Assembly: GCF_000711695.1 (NCBI RefSeq)
Contig: NW_013546905.1
Coordinates: forward strand, 1-54,454
Source of the DNA: Tilletiaria anomala UBC 951
Lineage: Eukaryota; Basidiomycota; Exobasidiomycetes; Georgefischeriales; Tilletiariaceae
Direction: 5' to 3'
Length of the DNA stretch: 54,454 bases
Shown here: piece after piece, positions 10,895 to 31,800 of the stretch
Layout of the letters: each line of letters starts with the position of its first letter
How positions within the stretch are numbered: position 1 is the stretch's first letter
Position numbers and translations under genes: made by a program
Notes under the pieces: model-generated
What the model was told of the DNA's origin: nothing
Database searches by the model: none
What the model saw: the letters and a program-made list of their open reading frames with translations, nothing else

Positions 10895-12367
10895 TCAGGT
10901 GGTGCTTTTCGCTGACTCAGCGTTGACAGCGGTCTCTTCACAACCTTGTGTGTCAGCTTTGGTAGGGTCGATGCCCAGCTTGACTTCTGCCGACTTTAGC
11001 GGCTGACTGCCCTTTACAACCAATGCAGGAACCGTTGCACGGTTGAGCTCAGGGTGCGCGCTTGTTGCCGCTGCCACGTCATTCGAGGGCTCCGACGCCG
11101 AAGCTGCTGCTCCTGCTCCTGTTGTTGTTGGTCCTTTGCTGTTGGCGCTAGCATCTGAGGTTGCTGAGTGCGAATGCATGGGAATGATTTTGGTTGTTTG
11201 GGGGGAATGGGAACTGCTAGTGCTGCTGCTGCCGCTATTGCTGCGCAGTGCTTTTTTGCCTGTAGCGGCTGATTTTACGCCGGATGAAGCCCTCCCAGGT
11301 GCTTTGGGAGCACTTGGCTTTGTGCAAGATGTGCTTTTAGTATGTGCCGCATTCGAGTGCGAGGAATGCGAATTGATGCGTTTGGACGGTACCCTTTCAC
11401 CAGCAACACTAGCAGCAGAACCAAGCTGCAAAGACGAAGTATTTGATCGGATTTGCTGCATGGCCATCATTGTCTCCTTTGCGCGCTGTCTGCTGGCTGC
11501 TGTGGAGGCGTGCACGCTGCTGCTACTGCTGCTGCTGTGGATGCTGTTGATGCTACAACTTCTACTCTTGGTTGTGCTGGTGCTGATGCCGGGCTGAGCC
11601 TGCGCTTTGGGTGGCGTGCTGGTCGACGCGGCCGGTCGCATATTGCCTCCTGAGCACGATCGGCCGATAGTTGCCGCGTCCTCCTTAGCAGCCACGGCGG
11701 GTGCAGTTTTCCGCAACCGAGCAGAGTTGCTGCCCACGCTGTGGGCTCTGGCGCACGAGGCCGTGAGGGTGGTGCTGCTTTTCTTGCCTGCTGAAGCTGC
11801 TGCGGGTTGCTGCTTGGACGGATATGACTTTGCACGTGATGATACAGATATTGATGAAGAGGACTGTGCTTGGGCTTGTGCTTGCACTGGAATTGTCTCC
11901 TTTCCTGCGCCTCTGCTCTCTATAGCATCACCGTCGCCATTGAGCGAAGCATCGCGCTTCGTGCGGTCTCGCATGACGGGGTAGGCCAAGTGTACATAAT
12001 CTTCGCCTCGCACCTTATTTTCGGGGGAAGTACATGCTGAACGAGCACCGCTCTGGTTAGGGTCAGACTGATGATTTGACTCAGCGCTTGGGGTTGCAGC
12101 CTCGAGATCTGGGTTGGGGTCTTTCCCAAATACATCGTCGTTGGCAGGCCAATTCGGGTGCGCAGTCTTATCCGTGCTCAGAGAGCCATTGGCGGTGGAT
12201 CTAAGCGAAGATGAACGGTGCAGCAGCAGCTTGGACACACTTCCGGTGGTCGTTGCCGTCAGCGATGGCGCCGGCGCTGCGGCATCATCGTTCTGATCCG
12301 CATGCTGTTGCCATCTCTGGATGAGTGCCGAAACCTTTGTCTGAGGGGACTCGTCCGGTAGCGGCAT
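10895..12367 (-). CDS. Ser/Ala/Thr-rich disordered protein of unknown function
   Basis: An intact 490-aa single-exon frame. I do not recognise it. The N-terminus has a short helix-like segment (TKVSALIQRWQQHAD). The middle is dominated by serine, alanine, threonine and glutamine runs interspersed with basic residues, typical of an unstructured phosphoprotein. Near the C-terminus VPALVVKGSQPLKSAEVKLG is the only other stretch of ordinary composition. The long frame, its clear start and the empty flanks argue it is a gene. It is convergent with the thiamine pyrophosphokinase gene and shares a 550-bp upstream region with the CC1-box protein gene. Antisense frames of up to 184 codons here are composition shadows. 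Confidence 0.65.
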   Translation of the reverse strand: MPLPDESPQTKVSALIQRWQQHADQNDDAAAPAPSLTATTTGSVSKLLLHRSSSLRSTANGSLSTDKTAHPNWPANDDVFGKDPNPDLEAATPSAESNHQSDPNQSGARSACTSPENKVRGEDYVHLAYPVMRDRTKRDASLNGDGDAIESRGAGKETIPVQAQAQAQSSSSISVSSRAKSYPSKQQPAAASAGKKSSTTLTASCARAHSVGSNSARLRKTAPAVAAKEDAATIGRSCSGGNMRPAASTSTPPKAQAQPGISTSTTKSRSCSINSIHSSSSSSSVHASTAASRQRAKETMMAMQQIRSNTSSLQLGSAASVAGERVPSKRINSHSSHSNAAHTKSTSCTKPSAPKAPGRASSGVKSAATGKKALRSNSGSSSTSSSHSPQTTKIIPMHSHSATSDASANSKGPTTTGAGAAASASEPSNDVAAATSAHPELNRATVPALVVKGSQPLKSAEVKLGIDPTKADTQGCEETAVNAESAKSTT

Positions 12368-12917
12368 TGTCTCGTTTCCGAGGCGTGCACGTCATGCGAT
12401 GGGCTGAGGGAGCGAGGCGTCAGCCAGCGAGATCTGTATGGGGGGCCCGCGAGGTCTCGCGTGACAGTCCGGGGGAAGGGTAAACGTTGCGAGGCAGTTA
12501 TACAGGCAGGCAAGGGGCGCGCACTGCTGCCGAGGCCAAGACGCTGTGTGCTGCCGTACAAACGATGGTCCCAGAAGCGTTACAGAGATGCGCGCATGCA
12601 GATGGAGATGATGTGAGAGATTCAAGGGCACCACAAACAACAACACACTACAAGCCACACGCCCCGTCGGTCGGCGACTTCTCAGCGATATGAGAAGAAA
12701 GTCGCCGACGAAAAGTGGACGGAGGACAGGTTGCCGATGGCCTAAGCCAAGCCAAAGCACCAGCACCAGCAGGAACAACAACAAACAGAGTCTCATCAGA
12801 TAGGGTGTCCCATTGCATACATCCCTCAAGCGACACACACCGTCTGCCGTACCGCTGGTCACCGCAGTTATCCATCTCGCAGCACTGCGGGCACCCGCAC
12901 TTGCCTTGTGCAGGGCC
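12368..12917. promoter_or_regulatory. Bidirectional promoter region, Ser/Ala-rich protein / CC1-box protein
   Basis: A 550-bp gap between two divergent start codons, rich in CA and CAACAA tracts. An in-frame ATG at 12813 could extend the rightward protein by 35 residues. I prefer the ATG at 12918 because its context is GCCATGG. Confidence 0.45.
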
Positions 12918-15900
12918 ATGGCGGCCCATCTGTCCTCGTCGGAACATGCCGTCGCCGCCGCCATCCCCGGAGCCGCCACCGTCGAGGAGCTGAGCCGCGT
13001 CCTGCACGATCTCAAGCACAGCACCGGCAGCATCCGATCTTCCTACGAGTACCATGACAACAGGCAGTCCGGATCATCATATTCATCGCTCCGCATCAAA
13101 TCCTCCGGCGCAAGCCTGCGATCAGCATCCGGCAGCGCTCGCCCTCGCAGTCGCAGCCGTGCCACCAGCAGCAGCAGCTCCGGTAGCAGCAGTCCCCCCG
13201 CCTTGGACAGCCCGGGAAGGACTCGTTCGCGGACAGTCAGGCTATCTGAACGCAGCTCCAGCGCCAGCACGCTAGGCTCCAGCGCGACGGCCAGCCTCCA
13301 TCGCCCATCGCGGCCTGCTTCCGCCGCCTACTGGGACGACGCAGCATCCAGCAGCTTTCACTCCGATGCCGGAGCAGCAGGGCGTGATGCGAAGCACAAT
13401 GCCGGCTCTGGCTCTGCTTTCCTCATTCCACACCTTGCCAAACGTGCACGCAGAAAGGAGAGGCGCAACTTAGGCAGCATCGCCCCTGGCGGCTTTGCCG
13501 ACGGTGGTGGTGGGGTCGGTAGCGGTACAGAAGAGGACAATGAGGATTCTTGGCCATATTGTACGTGCTGCTGCGACAAAGAAGACTGTCCACGTGCTAC
13601 AAGAGCTGCAAGAGAGTGGTCTGATATGCAAGAGGATCTACGACTGGCAGCAGGTGAGCGGCTCTCCCCTCCTCTCTCCCCCTTTTCCGCTTCTCTGAAC
13701 GCTTGACAACGCTGAATTGCAGAGATTGGCCAGGCGCTGCTCAAGAAGCATGACGAAGCTGTAGCGCGCTCCGCCAAAATCGAAACAGACTACGGTGCGC
13801 AGCGCGATGCTCTGATGAGTAAGCTGTCCTCCAGCATCAAAGAGTCCTCCTCGCTGCAACGCCAACTTGCGCAATCCAACTTGAACCTGGAAGCAGCCGA
13901 CTCGTCCAACCGCATTCTGCTGCATGAACTCGACGAAGTCCGCAATGCACTTTCCAAAACGCGAAAAGAGCATGCCAAGTGCGCGCTCACCGTGGCGAGA
14001 GCCGAAAAGCTCAGCAAGGAGCTCGAAGATGTCCGGCAAGAGAGCATCGCCATGCGCAAACGCGAAGAGGCAAGCACTTCGCTCGCTAAGCGCATCGGCA
14101 GGCGCAATGAAGAGCTTGTCGAGCAGCTGAAGCGCAAGGTGGAAGAGCTCGAGGTGCTCAGCCGCAGGGACCGGCCAGTAGATGTCGGCAGCGACGCAAT
14201 AGAGCGCGCAAAGGAGCGCCTGCGCATGGGTGCAGATGTTCGTGGCAGCGGTGGCGCAAAGGTTATGCGAGCAGAAATGGAAGCGACTGAGGATGCATAC
14301 CAGGAAATGCTGCAGATGTTAGTACAGGAGAGCGAATCTCTCAAGGAAGAGAATCGCTATCTGAAAGAGATGCTCGAGGCCAAGAACGAAGAGACCGCCG
14401 TGCTCAAGGAGGCACAGATGCCACGCTCATTTGGATCCACGCACGGCGCTCATCGACGCAGCCTCAACTTGGCGACTTCAGCCAGCGTCGCTTCGCCTAC
14501 CACTGTGTATTCGCCTGCTGCGACCGCATACAACGACAGTGCACCGCTTGGAGATGAACTGATGGCTGCCGCGGCTACTGCCCATACCGTGTCAAGTGCG
14601 GTTGGTCAGCAGCAGCAGCAGAAAAGGACGGACAGTCCAAAGCCGGCACTGCTCGTGTCACCGCCCAGTCGCACTTCCTTGCTGCCCGATATGCCGAGAG
14701 CGCCAACACTGGCGTCCAATGCAAGCGACCGCAGCTCAACCAAGGAGAAGGAAGGTGGCGACGACGACTCAGAATATGCAGCAGGTACTGGTGTTGCTGC
14801 AGCTGCTGCCTCTCCTGCTCCAGCGCAGACGCAGGCGCTGTCCGACTTGTCCTCGCAGCTCTCCCGCAAGGGCTCTCTCCTCCCTCGCAGTGGAGAGAAA
14901 GACACGCGCACGCAGCAGCTGAGCAACCTGCTCGACTCTGTGCAGCGCCTTTTCACGCGCCTCTCCACCGCCGACGTCAATACGCTCAGTCGGCGCTTGC
15001 AGCGCCAGCACTTGACAGGCGACGTCGGACATCTGGCGCGCACGACGCTTAACTCGATCATGCGCGATGTCGAGGGATTGCGCGAGCACTTCCGCCGCCT
15101 TGTGGAGCAGGAGGCACGAACGAGGGACAAGGAGAAAGATAAGGAGAGGGAGGACTGCGGATCCAGCACGACCAGTGGCAGCAACAACAAAGCAGATGGC
15201 GGCAGTGGCTCGTCGGAGAGCTTGCTTGCGCGCAGAGAGTTTTTTGCGCTGATCAAGACGTTCAAGGATCTATTCGTTGAGATCGGCAGACTGAGGACGT
15301 GCGTCAATGAAGTACATCTACAGCCGAGTCACGCGGCCAAGTTGCTGCAGGAACACCTTGGTCTCGAACCCATGGAAGAGAGAGGCCTGTTGCCTGGAGC
15401 TGAGTGGCTCAGCAAGATGTGGGCGGGTGCCTCGGCACCTCTCGGCGGTGGTGGAAGTGCTAGTGCTGGCGCTGGGGTCGCGGGTAAGGCAGGCAACACT
15501 ACCTTGTCTGCCGGGTCCGGGTTGCAAGGTGCCTCAACAGGAGAAATCGAGCGCGCCGCCGCGAACTCTCCGCTGGCTGCTACCCAATCTTTTGCAACCA
15601 GGGCCGTGACATTGCGCGGCGGCGCTTCCGTACGAGCTGCGCCGCGTGCCGAGGCATCTGTTGTCTCTACCACAGCCGTTGCCGTTGCCGTTGCCGCGAA
15701 CAGCGCGCCAGCGAACGAGGCTGCTGCCTCATCCCCTTCAGGATCGACCGACCCATCCGATCCGACGTCACTCAATCAGCCGCGGCTGCGCCCCAATCCG
15801 AATCTCGGCCGCAAGTCGCTGACGCGCGTCCAGTCGCGCAACCTCAGCGGCCTCTTCGCGGGCTCTGTCGCCCTCTCCAGCCCGACTGCGGGCGGGTGGG

Positions 15901-16862
15901 ACCTAGTGGACAGGCGAGAAGCGAGCAGCGCAGGTACGAGCGCAAGCGCAGCGCTCTCAGCGAACGCTAGGCTCGGAGCGGGCTTGATTCCAAATCGAGG
16001 TGGGCCGATGCAGCGCCCTCTGTCGCGTATCGTCGATGACGACGAGGTCAGCTTGCACCACGGCAGGTCGGGGCATGGTGGCTCAAGAGCAGATGATGAT
16101 GGGTTTAGAGGGGCGCTGCTGGAGCGGACCTTGCGGCCTCGTGGTCTTTCTGACTCGAGCATCCACTCAACCTTTGTGGAACACGGTGATGCGAGTGCCT
16201 CAGGCACATCAGCCACGCTTGCCGCTAGCGCAGCTGCAACAGCAACCAGGCCCTCGCCCATCTCGCGCCTGATCACCGCGTCTAGCTTGGCATTGCAAGT
16301 CTCTTCCTCTGGTGCACATGCCACCGCACGGGCCATCCGGGCCGACGAAGTGGCGAGGACGGACTCGCCGGCGTTGTCGGAGGACTCGGCGTCTACGACA
16401 GGTATCTTCAGCGGCTTTGGTCCAAGCGCTAGCGAAGGCAAGCGAGGTGGAGACGCTGTGAACACCTCGAGCAGCAGTAGCACCGACGGCAGCAAGGCGC
16501 CGTCCAGCTCGACCGCTTCTTTCTTCCCTTCGCTCGCTTCGTTGCGGCCGACAGCCAGCTTGGCCATCCTGGGCCTCTCGCGCACAGGCGCAGCAGGAGA
16601 AGCAACTGGAGCTCAGAGCTCGTCCACGTTGACAAACACGTCTTTCTCGACGTCCCCTTCGACCTCCGCTCACGCTTCGACGTCACTCCTCGCTCCTTCA
16701 TCGCCTGTGGACAAGCAGATGGGGAGCAGCGCTAGCAGTACGGCCAAGGAGATTGCGATGCCGAGCAGGAAGGGGGCGCGCCATGCGCGCAAGTCTTCGA
16801 TCGGAGACCAGGCACTCAGCCAGAGTTACGCTTACAAGACGATGCATCGCACTCAATTTTGA
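12918..16862 (+). CDS. Large coiled-coil protein with a CC1-box (HAP1/BICD-like) motif; candidate dynein adaptor
   Basis: Exons are 12918-13653 and 13723-16862 (1291 aa). The first 230 residues are Ser/Arg-rich and probably disordered. Splicing joins DLRLAA to EIGQALLKKHDE, giving AAEIGQALL at residues 244-252. This fits the CC1 box (AAxxGxxLL) by which BICD, TRAK/HAP1 and Spindly bind dynein light intermediate chain. A long coiled coil follows to about residue 440, then alanine-rich linkers with a Gln run near 14608. A second helical block (about 630-830) contains LSDLSSQL, REFFALIKTFKDLFVEIGRL and HAAKLLQEHLG. Its LFVE at 762-765 resembles the Spindly motif LFxE that contacts dynactin. The C-terminal 450 residues are low complexity and end in basic KGARHARKS. 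No PH domain is seen, so this is not a plain Num1/ApsA. The dynein role is inferred from motifs only. Confidence 0.8.
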
Positions 16863-22835: not shown

Positions 22836-25800
22836 ATGACTATCCCGCTGGGAGGCGCTGGGCCACCGTACGAGCCGGACAATGACGTCCACAGCAGTCA
22901 CCACGACCATGCCTCCCTCTCCTCCAGCTCACACTTTGGCAATGCTGGCCACGGTCGAGTGGGCATCGCCCAAAGAGAAAGCAGCAGCTCGCTCCCTCAC
23001 AGCGCGCACGGCATGATGGGCGGGCCCAGCGCCTTTGCTCACAGCAGCAGCTCTAGTACCGCTGCCCTTCATGCTGGAATCCCGGCAGACCACTCCGGCA
23101 GCTTCATACCAGGTGTCTCGTCTGCCGTACCGCTCGAACTTCCGGGCAGGGTCAGCTCAAGTGGGAGCACCATCGGCACGGAGAATATGATGGGTTCTGC
23201 CGGGCAGATGCTCATCGGCAGCATTCTGAGCAGGTTTGTCGAGAGGGTGAGTTGCGCCAGACGCGAGGTAGGGGTAGCTCCGCCGCCTGTGCATCCATCC
23301 TAACAGACACTCCCACTTCGTTATAGCTGCCCTCAACCTGTGGCTGGAGGTTAACTACTCTAGAAAATGATGAGATGATCCGAACAAGCATTGCAAATCT
23401 CGTCAGCCTCAGCGAGCGTCAGATTTCCATCATCCTCAAAGACATCCTAAGTCATTTGGAGGGCTTACAGAGGGTGAGTCCGCTTTGACTTTTAAAGTGC
23501 CCGAGAACTTTGTTGACCTCATGTCTCGACGCTTGTGCCCCAGGCTGCACAACATGTGTCAGAAGAATCGATATCTGGCATGGATTTGTTGGCTTCTCAA
23601 CTTTTCTTGCTCAAGGTCCTCGTTGCTTGCTTGTTCCAACACTGGAAGTCAGTCGGGCAAACAAAGCCTGCCGACTCCCAGTGCCGAGATACGAGCTCAC
23701 AAGGCCCTTGGATCGATCCTCCGCCGCTCGATGACGCTCTCGCAAAGCATGCACTGAGCACCATGACGATCTATCTCAAGCTCACCATCGCGCGCGAGGA
23801 GGCTGGGCTCTTTTCATCGTTCCCAGCCGCCGAGGTCCCCGAACGCGGGTCTGATCACTTGAAATCGCCGCAAAATGGTACCGTTGGCGGGAAGAATGCG
23901 GATCGCGCCTTGGGATTGCCGAGGGATGCGTTGAAGTTCGGTTCTTCAAGAACCGGAAAGGAGAAGGAGAAAGAGAAGGATCGTGACAAGGGAAAAGACG
24001 GGGACAGGGACGATGCAGAGGGGAGAGACGCGGACAACGGAGACAAAGCCTCTGATGCCTGGTCTCCTTCGAATCTACTGCTGGTCGAGGGCAGCCCACT
24101 CTTCTCCATCTTCCCAACTTTTCCTCCAACACTCTCGCCATTCGGCAGTGCAGGGATGCGATTTCACTCCAAGGGCAATTTTCCACCAGAGTTCAATCGC
24201 GACTGGCACCTCGCCGATTTGCATGGCAAGACAACACAAGAGGCTGTAGAGCTCGGCGAGGTGGATGACCTTCCGTCATTGATGACGAGCATCTATCGAC
24301 ACGCGAGCATGGTCATCTTCTACCTCAGTTCGAGCAACTGGGCGGTGGTGTTCGCCAGGATCCGTAACCGCCTTGCCTATCTTAGTACAACAATAGAGGA
24401 AAGCCCGAACACTGCGGAACTGCGTCTGCTCGAATGCAGCAATTTGCACCGCCAACGATTGGGTTCAGTGGTATCGGAGCTCTGCACCACCTTCTTGCAT
24501 CTCAAGCGATCGGCTCAACAGACCATCGCGGTCGCACTGCGGCGAGGCATCTGGAACTGGATCTACTACCACCCAGAAGAGTTTGCGCAGATGTATGCGA
24601 CTGGCAGAAGGCTCGAAGGCGCCTCAGATGTGCTCTTCGATCAGGTCTACAATCTCGCGGAATCGACACGCAAGAAGCTCTGGTTCTGGCCCATGCTTAA
24701 CTCCCTCTTGATGCTGTGTCCCGATATCGTTGGGCGAGCAGCCATCGGCGAGGGAAGAAAGAGCGGTAGCGTGGCAAAGAAAGTGCAATTCCTCGAAGGA
24801 CTGCGAAAGAGTCTGCGCACCAGCAAGCTGAGCGATGTCGCAGCGGTTTGTTGCGTCGATCTGGTCCGGGCTGCAGCATTCACACAGCGGGCGGAGTCTG
24901 GCTTGCGGCTCGTCGTGCCGGATATCGAGCGCGAGCTCCGCGAAAAGGTGTTCGAACCAATGCGAACTGCCGCGGGGACACCCCGTGCAGAGGAAGTAAT
25001 CTTAGCGACAGACCTGATGCACTCGTTCTACTGCCTCGACCCTCACAAAACCATGAAGGAACTCATCCCACCTTTCGCCGCGGAGAACGGCTCAATTTCA
25101 GCCAAGGTCGTCTTGGCCAAAGCTTGCATCCGCGTCGCATCAGGCTTCGGCCGGCTGCCATGGCACCCGCAACTGCGATTGCTGTATCCACAGCTGGCCA
25201 AGACATTCCGCTTCATCTTCAAAGACACTGCATTCAAGCTGAGCCGCCAAAGCGGTGTGGCGGTGGGAAAGCAGGAATCCAAGCGGCCGCTATCGCGTGG
25301 AGGGTCGCGGACTGCATCCAATCCGTCCGACCAGATTTTTGCTCGCACCGAGCTCGCCAACAACATCCTCAATCTCTGGTGCGCAGATCAGGACATGTGG
25401 AAATTTGGGCTTGGAATAAGCGAGACTCCACAGCGGAACCCGGATAAGAAGGCGGTCTACACGGAGAGCTTCCTCATCGAGTGTCTCAACACAGACACAT
25501 ACCTTGCGCTGTTTTGGTCCACCGCCTTCTGCATGCATGCCCCAGGGATGGAAGTCACTGCATTCCGCGCGTTGGCTTTTTGCCTGTACCCGTCATCGAG
25601 AACGATGCAGTCGATGACACGCGGTGACATTGTCGATGAGCATGCGAGGCTGGCCCGAGGAACCGTTTCCCCCACAACACTAACCGGACTCTTTGAACGC
25701 CTGATCTGGGGCGACTCTCCAGCAAGCTTCAAGTTCCACGTCGGCATCCTTAGACCATTGCTCTTAGGTCGCGCGCGTTATTACGCTGCGCTCAAGCCCC

Positions 25801-28800
25801 AAGATCGAAGAGAGTCTCCGTGGAGCAGCTTGGAGCGAGAACGTGCGGCGGAGGATGTGACCGCCGAAATTGCAGTCTTGTTGACGATCTGCAATTCCGA
25901 GCCGGATATCTGCCACGGGGCAATGCAACTAGGGCGTTCCTTTGCTCAGGGCCATGATGCATTCGCGGACGTCTACAGCAGTCAGAACCCGAGCAAGGAG
26001 TGGAGAGACTTCTATTACAAGCTTGCTGAAGATTCCAGCCTGTTCGTGGGTCGGATCGCCCAGCAAAAGAAAGTGCGAAGTCTGCTGCGCACGATCAATT
26101 CGCCCTCACCAGCCAGCTTGGCGGCATGGAAAGAGGCATATCGGCGCTGGGCGGCCCTCACGCAGGTGGTTGCACGACCTCTTGCTGCAGATACCAGCGA
26201 TACCGCCCAGGAGAAGGCCGCATACTGGTACAACCTCTCGGGGTTCCTCTCGGCCCTTGGCGGTGCTTGCGCGATCGAAGACGCCAACCTGCTTCCCAGC
26301 ACTCTTCAAGACACTCTGCTCAACCCCAAGCTGGTCAACACTAATCCACCGGTGCCGATGATTGAAAGCTTCATGCAGGAGATGGTGGATCTGTTGGTAT
26401 CAGACTCCATCTGGGTACGCGAAAAGGTCAAAGAGACCCTAGGCACCGACCTCAGTCCTCGGTTAAATGGTATTCTGTTACGGCAAATCCACGCGGTTCT
26501 CAGCGACTTCTTCGACAAATCTACTGGGCTGCCAAGACCTGCTGAGATGTTCACCGTCTTCGTGGAGCAGTCGATCAGCGTTGTGCAGATGGTGCTGAAT
26601 CGCATGAGCGCTCAAGCTGATGCGACGACAAATGTTGACATTGGTTCCTTGATGGTGCTCTACGTTGAGTATGTCAACTCTCTCGGTCGAAAAGATCAGG
26701 CGCTGCGCATTAAGGTCGCCATGTGCCAGCTTTGCGAGACATTGATGTCAAAGAAGGCGGCATTCCTGTTCTCCAACGAGCTCCGAGTTCGCAATCGACT
26801 ATTCCAGGCGCTAGTTACCTGGACCTCAGATTCGGTGAGCAGACACATGCAAGGAAGCTCAGACTCCTCCCACACTTTAGTGCTAACCCTTATTCATTCA
26901 TATCGCAGGCCGATGACGCTGGCGGCAGTGAGCGGTCCGAGCGTCTGCAGCGTGACTTGGATGTGATTTGCCTCAAGACAATTGCTAGTCTGCTCGACCG
27001 GCTACCGCTCATCCTGGCAGACGATGCCTTGTTCCTCGACGATAAGGTGGAATGGGCAAAGTCTCGACAATTCTCAATGTACTTCAACTACTTCCTCAAA
27101 GTCCTCAACCGCACACGCGACCTCGAAGCCAAGTCAATGAAGAGCGAGAAAGGTAGAGATTCGCAGAGTGACAGCGCTGTCATCAAGGATTCCGCAATCC
27201 TCGCCTTATCGAACTTGTTGGCATCCAATATCGACTCTGGCCTTCAGCACTCTCTGCCGCTTGCGTACAAAGAAGACCCACGGATCCGCACAGCCTTCAT
27301 GCAAATTATGACCAACGTCATCTCTCAAGGAGCGCAATTTGAAGACCTCGAGCGCTTGGCTGGCACTCAGCAGCAAAACAAAATGGTCGAATTGATCTGC
27401 GAAGGTGACATGCAGCTGGCCCTGTCCATCTGCCAGATCTCCCGCGGCTTCGACGCAGACTCGCTCGACTATGTTCTGCTCAACATCTTCGACTCGCGAG
27501 GCGAAGTCATGCGCTTTCTGGGCTTGGCTCTTGAGGAGGAAGTCGAGCGCACACCTTCGGAAGAGATGGTGTTCAGGAGCAACTCCTTCCGGACTCATCT
27601 GCTGTCAGTCTACGCCAAGATGCACGGCTACGAATATCTTCGGTCCGTGCTGGAGCCGCTTGTCGTGGATATGATCTCTCGCTCCAGAGGGGTGTCTTTC
27701 GAGATCGATCCGCAAAGGATCGAGCCGGGCGAGAGCGTCGTAGTGAACCAAGCACGTCTAGAAGAGCTAGCACAATCCTTCATCGATGCTATCTGTACCT
27801 CTGCGCACCGGGTACCTGCCGTGTTGCAAGAGCTGTGCAGGCGAATTCGTGTCCTGATGGATGCGAAGTTCCCCAACTCGCGCTACCAAGGCGTTGGCGG
27901 CTTCATGTTCCTACGCTTCATCAGCCCCGCCGTTGTCGCTCCGCAACTGATCGATCTGGACCTCGGCTCCTCGACCAAGGAAGCTCGACGCGGGCTGTTG
28001 CTGGTCAGCAAGATTCTCCAAACTCTGGCTAGCAACAATCTCTTCCCGACGCATAAGGAGCCGTTCATGACGAGTCTCAACGACTTCCTGAAGAGGAACG
28101 TCTGGAGGGTCACCAACTTCCTGGATCAAGTATCGGATGCAACCTCGGAACTCGATCGAGCATCAGCTGGTCAGCACAGCATCTTCGCCCTAGGGTACAC
28201 TTTGAACGAATCAGACCAGCGATCGCTCCATAGGTTTTTGTATGACAACGTCGACAAAATCGGGAAGGATCTGCTTTCAAGGAGCGCCAGTTCGCGCGCC
28301 AAAGGCGATCTCGCGGCCTCTGACGAAAGCAAGAGGATCTATGAGAATCTCTGCATTGCGCTTGCGGAGATGGGTGATTACAGCGTTTTGGCCCCAGTGG
28401 TATTAGCACAGCAGAATGTTGGTGTCGACAATCGTCAGTCGTACGAGGACTTCATGAGACGCAACGTCAACCGGCACCTGGATCCACAAGCTTTTGCCAA
28501 GGTTTTCCGGATCGGGCCGCCTTCGAAAGCTGGTAGACCAGTCGTATACTACACGATAAGCAGCATTCGTGCCGCAAGCTTCGACTTCGAAGCTCTCATT
28601 GCGCATGTTCTACAAATGCTACAACCCCTCTTCAACAGGGAGTTCGATCTTCTGCTGGATATGACTGGAATGTCGTCTGAGCATTGGATTCCGCCACAAT
28701 GGCTGTTATACTGGACCTCGCTCCTTCCGTCGGAAGTGCGGCGTGGCCTGCGCAACCTGATCGCATTCAATCCCAACAGCTCTACAAAGGAGTCGCTTCG

Positions 28801-31800
28801 TCCTTACTTCTTGCATGAGATTGAGAAGCTGGGCCCACTTGACAATGCATTGGCTGCGCCAGCAAATCTCGACGTTCACTTCTGCACCTCGCTTGCTGAA
28901 CTCGAAGCATTCATCGCACGCAAAGACATCGACCTCAATGCATCAACAATGAGCATCGCAATGGCTCCTGTGGAACACACATTCCCCAACGCAACGCTTA
29001 TCAGTCATTACCGAGCACTTCTTCCGGTGTCTTTCCGGCTAGGGAGCGATCACCTGCAAATCATGTCACTCAAGCTACAAGAGATGTTCATGGGACGTTC
29101 ATCATACACGAATGAGGTCATCCACTTCGCCGACATCGACGACGTTCGGCCAGTAACCAATCGAAGCGAAGAAACAGCGTTTATTCTGACGTGCAAAGGT
29201 GGCAGGTCTGCTTTCCTTTTCCTCAGCAAGGATCGTACGGAGATTGTGCAATCCTTGCGCCAGGCCAAGGCACGTGTTGGGCGGACAGCCGCTACTAAAA
29301 CAGAGCGGACACTCATGCCCAGCGACGTTCCTGGAACCTTGCTCAACATGGCCTTACTCAATATGACCAGCACCGACTACATGCTAAGGGCCAGCGCGTA
29401 CAACCTCCTTTGTGCTCTCTCAACTTCATTCAATTTCGGCACCAGCAGTGCAAAGCGTCGCTTGCTCAGTGTGCAGGGTGAGTTGGCATCGCGCGCATTG
29501 CTGGGCATGTCACTAACGCGATCTTCTCGAAACAGGCCTCGCCCTGCCGGCGAACATGACCACATTTGTTGCAGACCTGAGCAAGGACTTCGCTGTGGCG
29601 GCTCCTGGTGTTTCGCTGGAATTCCTCATTTCTTTCTTCGAGGGATTTGAGGCATCAGCTCCGAGCCAGCGGCCTGCATGCTTGCTGTATATGGTTCCGT
29701 GGCTCTCCAACCTTTCGAGCTTCATGCACAGTGCTCGTGAGCAGCAATCTGAGTATCTCAAGAGGATTAAAGAGGTCTTGGGGCATTTAATCAAAATCAC
29801 CGTTCAGCATCCGGAGGCAAGTTGGCGATCGGTGGGCCAATAGACTTCGTACTGACATGATGTGCATTTGCAGCTTTACGCCACGATGCAACGCAACGTC
29901 TGGACGCATTTTAGCAAGCTTGATGGTCTTTTACCGATTGTCTTAGAAGTCTTCACTGAGGCTGCGGTAGACTCCGGGCTGCAGACAAGGGCATTCGAAG
30001 CCGTGCTTGACACTATGGTGTCCTTCACTTCCTTCAATCTCCGGGGCAAGCTGTTATCACGTCTGCGGAAGGTGAGTAGATCCATGTCCCTGCTTGCTGG
30101 ACATTGCTGAAATCTCCCTCACCGTCAACAGGCTATCGCGAGGACCGCCAAAGCTCCCAGTGCGACGCCACTTACAGACAACGCTGCATGGGTTGAAATA
30201 GCAACGCTCGTCCGCATGAACATGGTCCTCTCCTTCACCAATCGCATGGAGGTCATGCTTTACCTGCCGGAGCTCTTGCACGTACTGTTGCTCCTCGCAG
30301 GTACTGGCTCGGACGCAATGCGACGAGCCATCCATGGTTCGGGCATCAATCTCATTCACTCCCTCTGCACCGAAGACCCACGTGAGGCAAAGAGCGAAGT
30401 GGATGCTGCCCTTCCTCCCGGGACTACCAAATTGCGAGCTCTTCTCGCCACTTTTGCTGGCGACGAGGCTCTCAAGTTGTTCGGGCTGCGCAGCGGGGAG
30501 CTTGCACCCTTTGCAGGGTCAATGGACATATTCACCGAAAGCCCGACCAACGAGCAGATTGAAGTGCTAGCTCTCCGAGTTTATCAGATCGCAGAACTTG
30601 CGGCGCCGACTGTAGACACTGCCAACAGTTGGCGAGCGCGATTGACCAGCCTGATCACGAGCACAGCTTTCCAGTACAATCCCTTCATCCAGTCGCGCGC
30701 TTTCATCTTGCTCGGCTGCTTGGCGCAAGGGGAGATCGATGACGATCTCCTATATCAGATTCTGGTGTCTTTGCGGGGTAGCATCTCCGAATGGGGAAAC
30801 AACGGGAACGACGGGCCAATGATTAGCATTCTTGCTTGTCTGAGCAAAGTCGTCAAGATCCTACCGCGGCGCTCTCGATACTTGCCTCAGATGTTCTGGC
30901 TTGGCATATGCATGGTCCAGTTCGGACACATTCCCACCTTCCGGGCTGGTGTCGAGCTCCTGCATTCTGCACTGCAGACGATCTGGGATCGCAATCTTCC
31001 TCAAGAGAGCGGCAGGGATCTTCCGACATTCCTGCTCGAGGCAAGAACGGAATTTAGAGAATCTTCTTGCCGCCTAGATGATGAGACTGGCGTCGACTTT
31101 GAGCTCGACTTTGGCTTCGCCATGGCGGCTTTGTTGGTCAAGGGTCTCCGCTCGGAACGGACGCAAGCCGAGACGATCGCGGTGCTGCGCTCATTGCTCC
31201 GCTTTACATCCTATGACATCGATGGACGACCTCATGCGCGCGACGGTAAGCTGTCATCGTATCATCTCGGCTACTTCGTCGCGCTTCTCCCAACTGCAGT
31301 CTCATCCGAAGATTGCAGCTCCTTGCTCGAAATGACAGGAATCGATGCCGATGTGTCAAAGCATGTCATCGATGACCGAGAGAAAGGCAGTTGGAGTCTG
31401 TTCAGCCTGTTCGGAGCGGCGGATAAGAAAGAAGCATTGCTCATCTCGACGCTTGTCGCCGCTCTGTTGGAGTACGCAACGTCGGACGACGAAAAGCTGT
31501 TGCTCTACACGCTACTTGCCGACGCCGCTTTGGCTCGGCCCGCCATTGTTTCCATTCTGTAAGTGCTGACCTGTACGCTCCATGCAGCTGAAGCGTAAGT
31601 GACTGAGCCTGCTTCCTTCATGGTACTTGTAGCTACGATTGGCTGTCACCTGGAATGCAGGACGTCTTTGTCAAATCGCAAAACCCGCAGGTGATCAAAG
31701 CCGTCCACTCCATCGCGAGCATCGCAGTCTGCGAGCCCGTCTTCGCGGCGCAAGCAGCAGAGACGGCACGGCGCGGCGGCCCGTCTGCGTACCTGGAGGA

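Follow-up and report, generated by a model that had tools for sequence, protein, structure and literature searches.

Organization of the locus

The window analysed here is a stretch of 54,454 nucleotides of Tilletiaria anomala UBC 951 (contig NW_013546905.1, positions 1 to 54,454), and it carries on the forward strand a two-exon gene whose product contains a candidate CC1 box, the short helical motif with which animal cargo adaptors hold on to the dynein motor. The features of the gene and of its predicted product are collected in Table 1. The spliced product has 1291 amino acids followed by a stop; its frame is free of internal stops, whereas the two alternative frames contain 24 and 33. If the intron were retained, translation would continue from LAA for 17 further codons and then reach a stop. 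We infer that the 69-nt intron is removed as had been proposed in the initial annotation, which also gave AAEIGQALL at residues 244-252 and LFVE at residues 762-765; both strings stand at these residues in the spliced translation. It may be noted that a basic run, KRARRKERR (residues 175-183, positions 13440-13466), resembles a nuclear localisation signal, and that the cysteine cluster listed in Table 1 may serve for lipid attachment or bind a metal.

Table 1. Features of the candidate adaptor gene and of its predicted product, in positions of the window.
Feature	Residues	Positions	Strand	Basis or remarks
Exon 1	1-245 and first base of codon 246	12918..13653	+	First Met of the open frame starting at 12804
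69-nt intron, interrupting the CC1 box	Phase 1 in Glu246	13654..13722	+	GTGAGC donor; TTGCAG end with CAG acceptor; single YTRAY-type branch-like TTGAC near the 3′ end
Exon 2	246-1291 and stop	13723..16862	+	1048-codon open frame, stop to stop
Cysteine cluster CTCCCDKEDC, some 15 residues upstream of the CC1 box	215-224	13560..13589	+	Translation
CC1 box, EDLRLAAEIGQALLKK (span takes in the intron)	239-254	13632..13748	+	TRAK2 and HAP1_N matches, shuffles, profile
Long predicted helix, from mid-box onward (model starts at residue 245)	246-393	13723..14165	+	Single-sequence AlphaFold2; block of pLDDT 90-98 up to about residue 384
Second long predicted helix	423-476	14253..14414	+	Single-sequence AlphaFold2
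LGDEL, weak Spindly-like string	521-525	14547..14561	+	Compared with TRAK2 LAAEI; TRAK-like distance, Gly at the required hydrophobic position
Predicted helical region, possible cargo-binding part	637-790	14895..15356	+	AlphaFold2, mean pLDDT 59.6 for residues 628-835
LFVEI, Spindly-like by letters, no better than chance	762-766	15270..15284	+	Pattern match, shuffles, AlphaFold2

Matches of the CC1 box

The 16 residues of the box, EDLRLAAEIGQALLKK, are identical to TRAK2 in 12 positions and to BICDR1 in 9, and a comparison of DLRLAAEIGQALLKK with BICD2 gives 6 identities out of 15. When a 25-aa query was searched against the PDB (177,635 distinct sequences), TRAK2 was the sole match, with box aligned on box and an E-value of 0.3. 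A 69-aa query gave three matches in the same library, the first two being designed proteins judging by their names and the third TRAK2 at E 0.48. Against the 24,736 families of Pfam, a 64-aa segment containing the box matched HAP1_N (PF04849) and no other family (E 1.5e-4, 21.5 bits), and HAP1_N was again alone for a 48-aa piece that ends in the box (E 0.02). Neither a 64-aa tile starting from IGQALL inside the box nor three tiles lying further on matched HAP1_N. Besides these five pieces of the present protein, fragments of four known adaptors were scanned against Pfam, nine in all; on HAP1_N, TRAK2 reached 4.1e-29 and BICDR1, a proven adaptor, 6.2e-7, which is also under the curated cut-off. 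For BICD2 and Drosophila BicD the fragment started with the box itself (in BicD even without the first Ala) and lacked the residues upstream of it; their missing HAP1_N match is no fair comparison and does not serve as support.

To judge how far the box exceeds chance, shuffled sequences were used. AAxxG alone is not notable because the protein is so rich in alanine (it is Ser/Ala-rich, with 14% alanine): it occurs 3 times against a mean of 2.03 in residue shuffles. When the whole protein is shuffled 2000 times, 1.4% of the results contain the longer pattern AAxxGxxLL; when only residues 228-485 are shuffled, 5000 times, the figure is 0.12%. The extended pattern DLxLAAx[IL]Gx[AS]LL, which was written after the TRAK2 match was known, appears in 0 of the 2000 and 0 of the 5000. 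A control for coil composition is the class-preserving shuffle, whereby the pattern of hydrophobic, polar and charged residues is kept. For residues 228-300 the observed score was reached in 2 of 2000 such shuffles with TRAK2, in 1 of 2000 with BICD2 and in 24 of 2000 with BICDR1. A profile made from the boxes of TRAK2, BICDR1 and BICD2 gives 17.5 bits for the whole protein and 15.4 bits for the box alone, whereas the highest value among 5000 class-preserving shuffles of residues 228-485 was 15.0 bits. Drosophila BicD was left out of both the class-preserving shuffles and the profile. The similarity at the CC1 box is above chance, and the initial annotation of AAEIGQALL as a CC1 box is thus supported by the short-segment matches in the PDB, by HAP1_N and by the class-preserving shuffles.

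The same counts bear on an explanation without dynein, namely that the gene encodes a structural coiled-coil protein (of the cortex, septum or spindle pole, for example) in which AAxxG arose by chance or serves the coil. That AAxxG is expected about twice in a protein so rich in Ser and Ala speaks for such an explanation, yet the extended motif is seen in none of the 7000 shuffles, and the short segments point to TRAK/HAP1 in two libraries, PDB and Pfam. Judging from the sequence, we consider it fairly probable, though well short of certain, that the product is a fungal CC1-box adaptor for dynein.

Predicted coil and its register

AlphaFold2 was run on residues 245-500 as a single-sequence monomer; the model starts inside the box, so the upstream end of the helix lies outside it. 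A long helix is predicted with high confidence from the middle of the box on, in agreement with the long coil that the initial annotation had placed after the CC1 box. It is unbroken for 148 residues, which by arithmetic is about 22 nm, and a short predicted helix (residues 403-415) lies between it and the second long one. In the BICD2-LIC structure, as described in passages of PMC7655957, the first Ala of the box occupies core position d and the Gly position a (A43 and G47 of BICD2), and a cavity is formed there for the helix of the dynein light intermediate chain (LIC). The same passages call Ala and Gly atypical in the core positions of a coil, a point which also argues against a purely structural role of the motif. 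With A244 at d and G248 at a, the core is lined by W234, M237, L241 and L251. Of the seven registers this one scores highest for residues 227-276, though narrowly (0.47, with 0.40 for the next). The box register is consistent with the published BICD2 geometry and is no proof of the same arrangement.

If the protein is an adaptor, the CC1 box would grip the LIC, the two long helices of the model may lie along dynactin, and the helical region of residues 637-790 together with the disordered tail would hold the cargo. Dimerisation, LIC binding, dynactin contact, activation of the motor and the carrying of any cargo are inferred, whereas the gene model, the above-chance similarity of the box and the predicted long helix come from the analysis itself.

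A number of results weigh against the adaptor assignment. The E-values to single proteins given above are weak, the 64-aa segment was picked once the motif was already known, and its score falls 12 bits short of the curated HAP1_N cut-off of 33.9 bits. The protein is not filed under HAP1_N because 21.5 bits lie below this cut-off. The full-length protein matches no Pfam family. With the 262-aa coil as query, HAP1_N (E 0.97) comes only after Rab11-FIP3 (0.025) and ANAPC2 (0.85) in Pfam, and in the PDB it matches no adaptor, the two matches being CEP63 (0.072) and a protein that is designed judging by its name (E 2). The Rab11-FIP3 match is absent for the 64-aa segment, and we took it as generic coil. 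Drosophila BicD scores no better against residues 228-300 than against plain shuffles (238 of 1000 reach the score), the fragment being without the first Ala of the box. Beyond the box, the score of residues 263-485 against TRAK2 is reached by 123 of 2000 class-preserving shuffles, and the reversed sequence scores higher than the true one (105 versus 86). The register that fits the box also loses to another for residues 234-293 (0.47 versus 0.44) and for residues 253-300 (0.46 versus 0.29). Also, the unbroken helix falls short of the 35-39 nm that passages of PMC9481740 report for BICD2, BICDL1, HOOK1, HOOK3 and TRAK1, although the coils of JIP3 and RILP, at about 20 nm according to the same passages, are near to it. 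HBS1 consists of QxxY/H followed by a glutamate patch, and residues 241-480 contain no QxxY/H. According to parts of PMC7615804 an HBS1 is present in some adaptors, so its absence does not exclude adaptor function. Lastly, there is no credible Spindly motif in the protein (see below).

A likeness to TRAK2 along the whole coil had been favoured by plain shuffles, of which only 2 of 1000 reached the score for residues 263-485 (11 of 1000 for the same residues against Drosophila BicD); it was dropped after the class-preserving shuffles and the reversed sequence. The likeness to TRAK2 past the box is, by these sequence comparisons, ordinary coiled-coil likeness, and the claim therefore depends on the box and the residues close to it. 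Such generic similarity beyond the box, the lack of an adaptor among the PDB matches of the whole coil, the lack of a supported Spindly motif and of the HBS1 pattern, and the lack of a Pfam family for the full-length protein all suit a structural coiled-coil protein. After setting these against the shuffles and the TRAK/HAP1 matches, we regard the structural explanation as unlikely, with about one chance in a few left to it.

C-terminal region and Spindly-like strings

Low-complexity sequence flanks a second region of the protein, in which helices are predicted at residues 637-673, 679-725, 751-775 and 780-790, with a last one of low confidence at 803-815. Nothing above a cut-off was found for residues 637-790 in Pfam or NCBIfam; the four NCBIfam matches (E 0.068-0.67) are all far below their cut-offs. 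A search of residues 640-812 against PDB sequences gave four matches, the best at E 0.13. The fold search with the model of residues 628-835, whose mean pLDDT is 59.6, gave 76 matches at E up to 10 and none at or below 0.001. The initial annotation had marked both the box and this region for profile searches: the box segment returned HAP1_N as its sole family, albeit below the cut-off, and the second region returned no family. The region 637-790 may perhaps be a second conserved domain.

The Spindly consensus, in passages of PMC9481740 and PMC7615804, is LΦxEΦ; the motif binds the pointed end of dynactin. LFVEI is an exact fit to this consensus, and LFVE had been likened to the Spindly motif LFxE in the initial annotation, to which the two motifs together suggested an adaptor. 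The shuffles do not bear this out: LFxE is present in 11.9% of whole-protein shuffles and at least one LΦxEΦ in 56%. By these shuffle frequencies, only the first of the two motifs exceeds what chance would give. Three strings in the protein fit LΦxEΦ, two of them in the coil and one of these being the LAAEI within the CC1 box itself. In addition, LFVEI lies inside the predicted helix 751-775 of a separate region. We therefore rejected the Spindly motif at residue 762 as unsupported, its match being at chance level and within a helix of a separate region. The initial annotation saw the second motif as weakened by the 500-residue spacing with low-complexity linkers; long spacing does not by itself refute LFVEI because in JIP3 a disordered gap of 197 residues precedes the Spindly motif (parts of PMC7615804). 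The helical setting does not refute it either, because in JIP3 the docked motif is itself a short helix (same parts). A long disordered gap leaves some room for a functional Spindly motif at residues 762-766 alongside the CC1 box, but we hold this full version of the two-motif proposal to be very improbable. What stands of the proposal is the CC1 box with the long helix.

The weak candidate LGDEL was found by comparison with TRAK2. We identify LAAEI of TRAK2 (residues 374-378, 245 residues beyond the first Ala of its box) as its probable Spindly motif. This identification, which is our own, fits with constructs described in passages of PMC10011603 as being without the Spindly motif when ending at residue 360 and with it when ending at residue 400. 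The comparison bears on a special case of the adaptor assignment, whereby the protein would be a fungal two-way adaptor of the TRAK/HAP1 type that serves kinesin-1 as well as dynein. TRAK2 and HAP1_N being the nearest matches speaks for it. Yet the similarity to TRAK2 past the box is not significant, the HAP1_N score stays under its cut-off, and TRAK2 LAAEI is without a convincing counterpart, LGDEL at 521 being weak. A two-way adaptor is therefore improbable in our estimate.

Comparison with known dynein adaptors and anchors

The candidate adaptor shares with TRAK1/TRAK2 and HAP1 a CC1 box ahead of a long coil. It differs from them in that similarity past the box is not significant, the HAP1_N cut-off is not reached, no convincing Spindly motif is present and the C-terminal half matches no family. 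With BICD2 and BICDR1 (BICDL1) it has in common the AAxxG box ahead of a long coil, but it is without the QxxY/H of HBS1 and its modelled unbroken helix is shorter. The Hook proteins (HookA, Hok1), the endosome adaptor of fungi in passages of PMC7649786, are alike in having a coiled coil which is proposed here to link dynein and cargo; no Hook domain is present in our protein, for which Pfam gives no family over the full length. Num1-type cortical anchors (PMC6297085, in part) likewise come from fungi and have a coiled coil for which dynein binding is proposed. The initial annotation had set the protein apart from Num1/ApsA by the absence of a PH domain, and this absence agrees with our search, because no Pfam family is found in the full-length protein. 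JIP3 resembles the candidate in its shorter coil and in the long gap ahead of the Spindly (here Spindly-like) string, but its contact with the LIC helix is made by an RH1 domain and not a CC1 box (passages of PMC7615804).

Neighbouring open frames

A Pfam scan of ten further open frames in the window gave matches that include thioredoxin, RasGAP with CRAL-TRIO, a mitochondrial-type L5 and CTNNBL. In the PDB the L5 protein matches 6ywe best and then 5mrc and 3j6b, which we take to be fungal mitochondrial ribosomes. Long open frames with RasGAP and a divergent CRAL-TRIO, followed by a frame with a weak, sub-cut-off match to MOR2-PAG1_C, occupy positions 23517-31559 on the + strand; the RasGAP and CRAL-TRIO frames are presumably neurofibromin/Ira-like. 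Next to the candidate adaptor gene, a divergently oriented, Ser/Ala-rich open frame of 498 residues (10898-12391, - strand) has no Pfam family at E 0.001.

Implications for fungal dynein

No relative of the protein was found among viral contigs (two queries) or among prokaryote contigs (coil region), a result which says nothing on fungal orthologues. As dynein linkers of fungi, the passages of PMC7649786 name Hook proteins and Num1-like anchors. The CC1-box members named in passages of PMC7655957 are animal proteins, and 100 CC1-box sequences are compiled in a supplement that lies outside those passages. In a literature search that left most subscription journals outside, no paper was found which joins the CC1 box, the Spindly motif and fungal dynein, nor one which joins the CC1 box, Num1 and dynein. 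Of 21 papers that name two or more of CC1 box, Spindly motif and LIC1, none concerns a fungus, as far as titles and abstract openings tell. This gap does not prove that the family is undescribed because most subscription journals were left out.

We offer as a tentative proposal, which we think possible but not yet probable, that fungi have a family of CC1-box adaptors that shares a common ancestor with TRAK/HAP1/BICD and has a fungus-specific helical cargo region, here residues 637-790. If so, CC1-box adaptors would predate the split of animals and fungi and would not be an animal set. A fungal CC1-box protein would add to the known routes by which fungal dynein meets its cargo, and it could offer a CC1-box adaptor that is genetically tractable.

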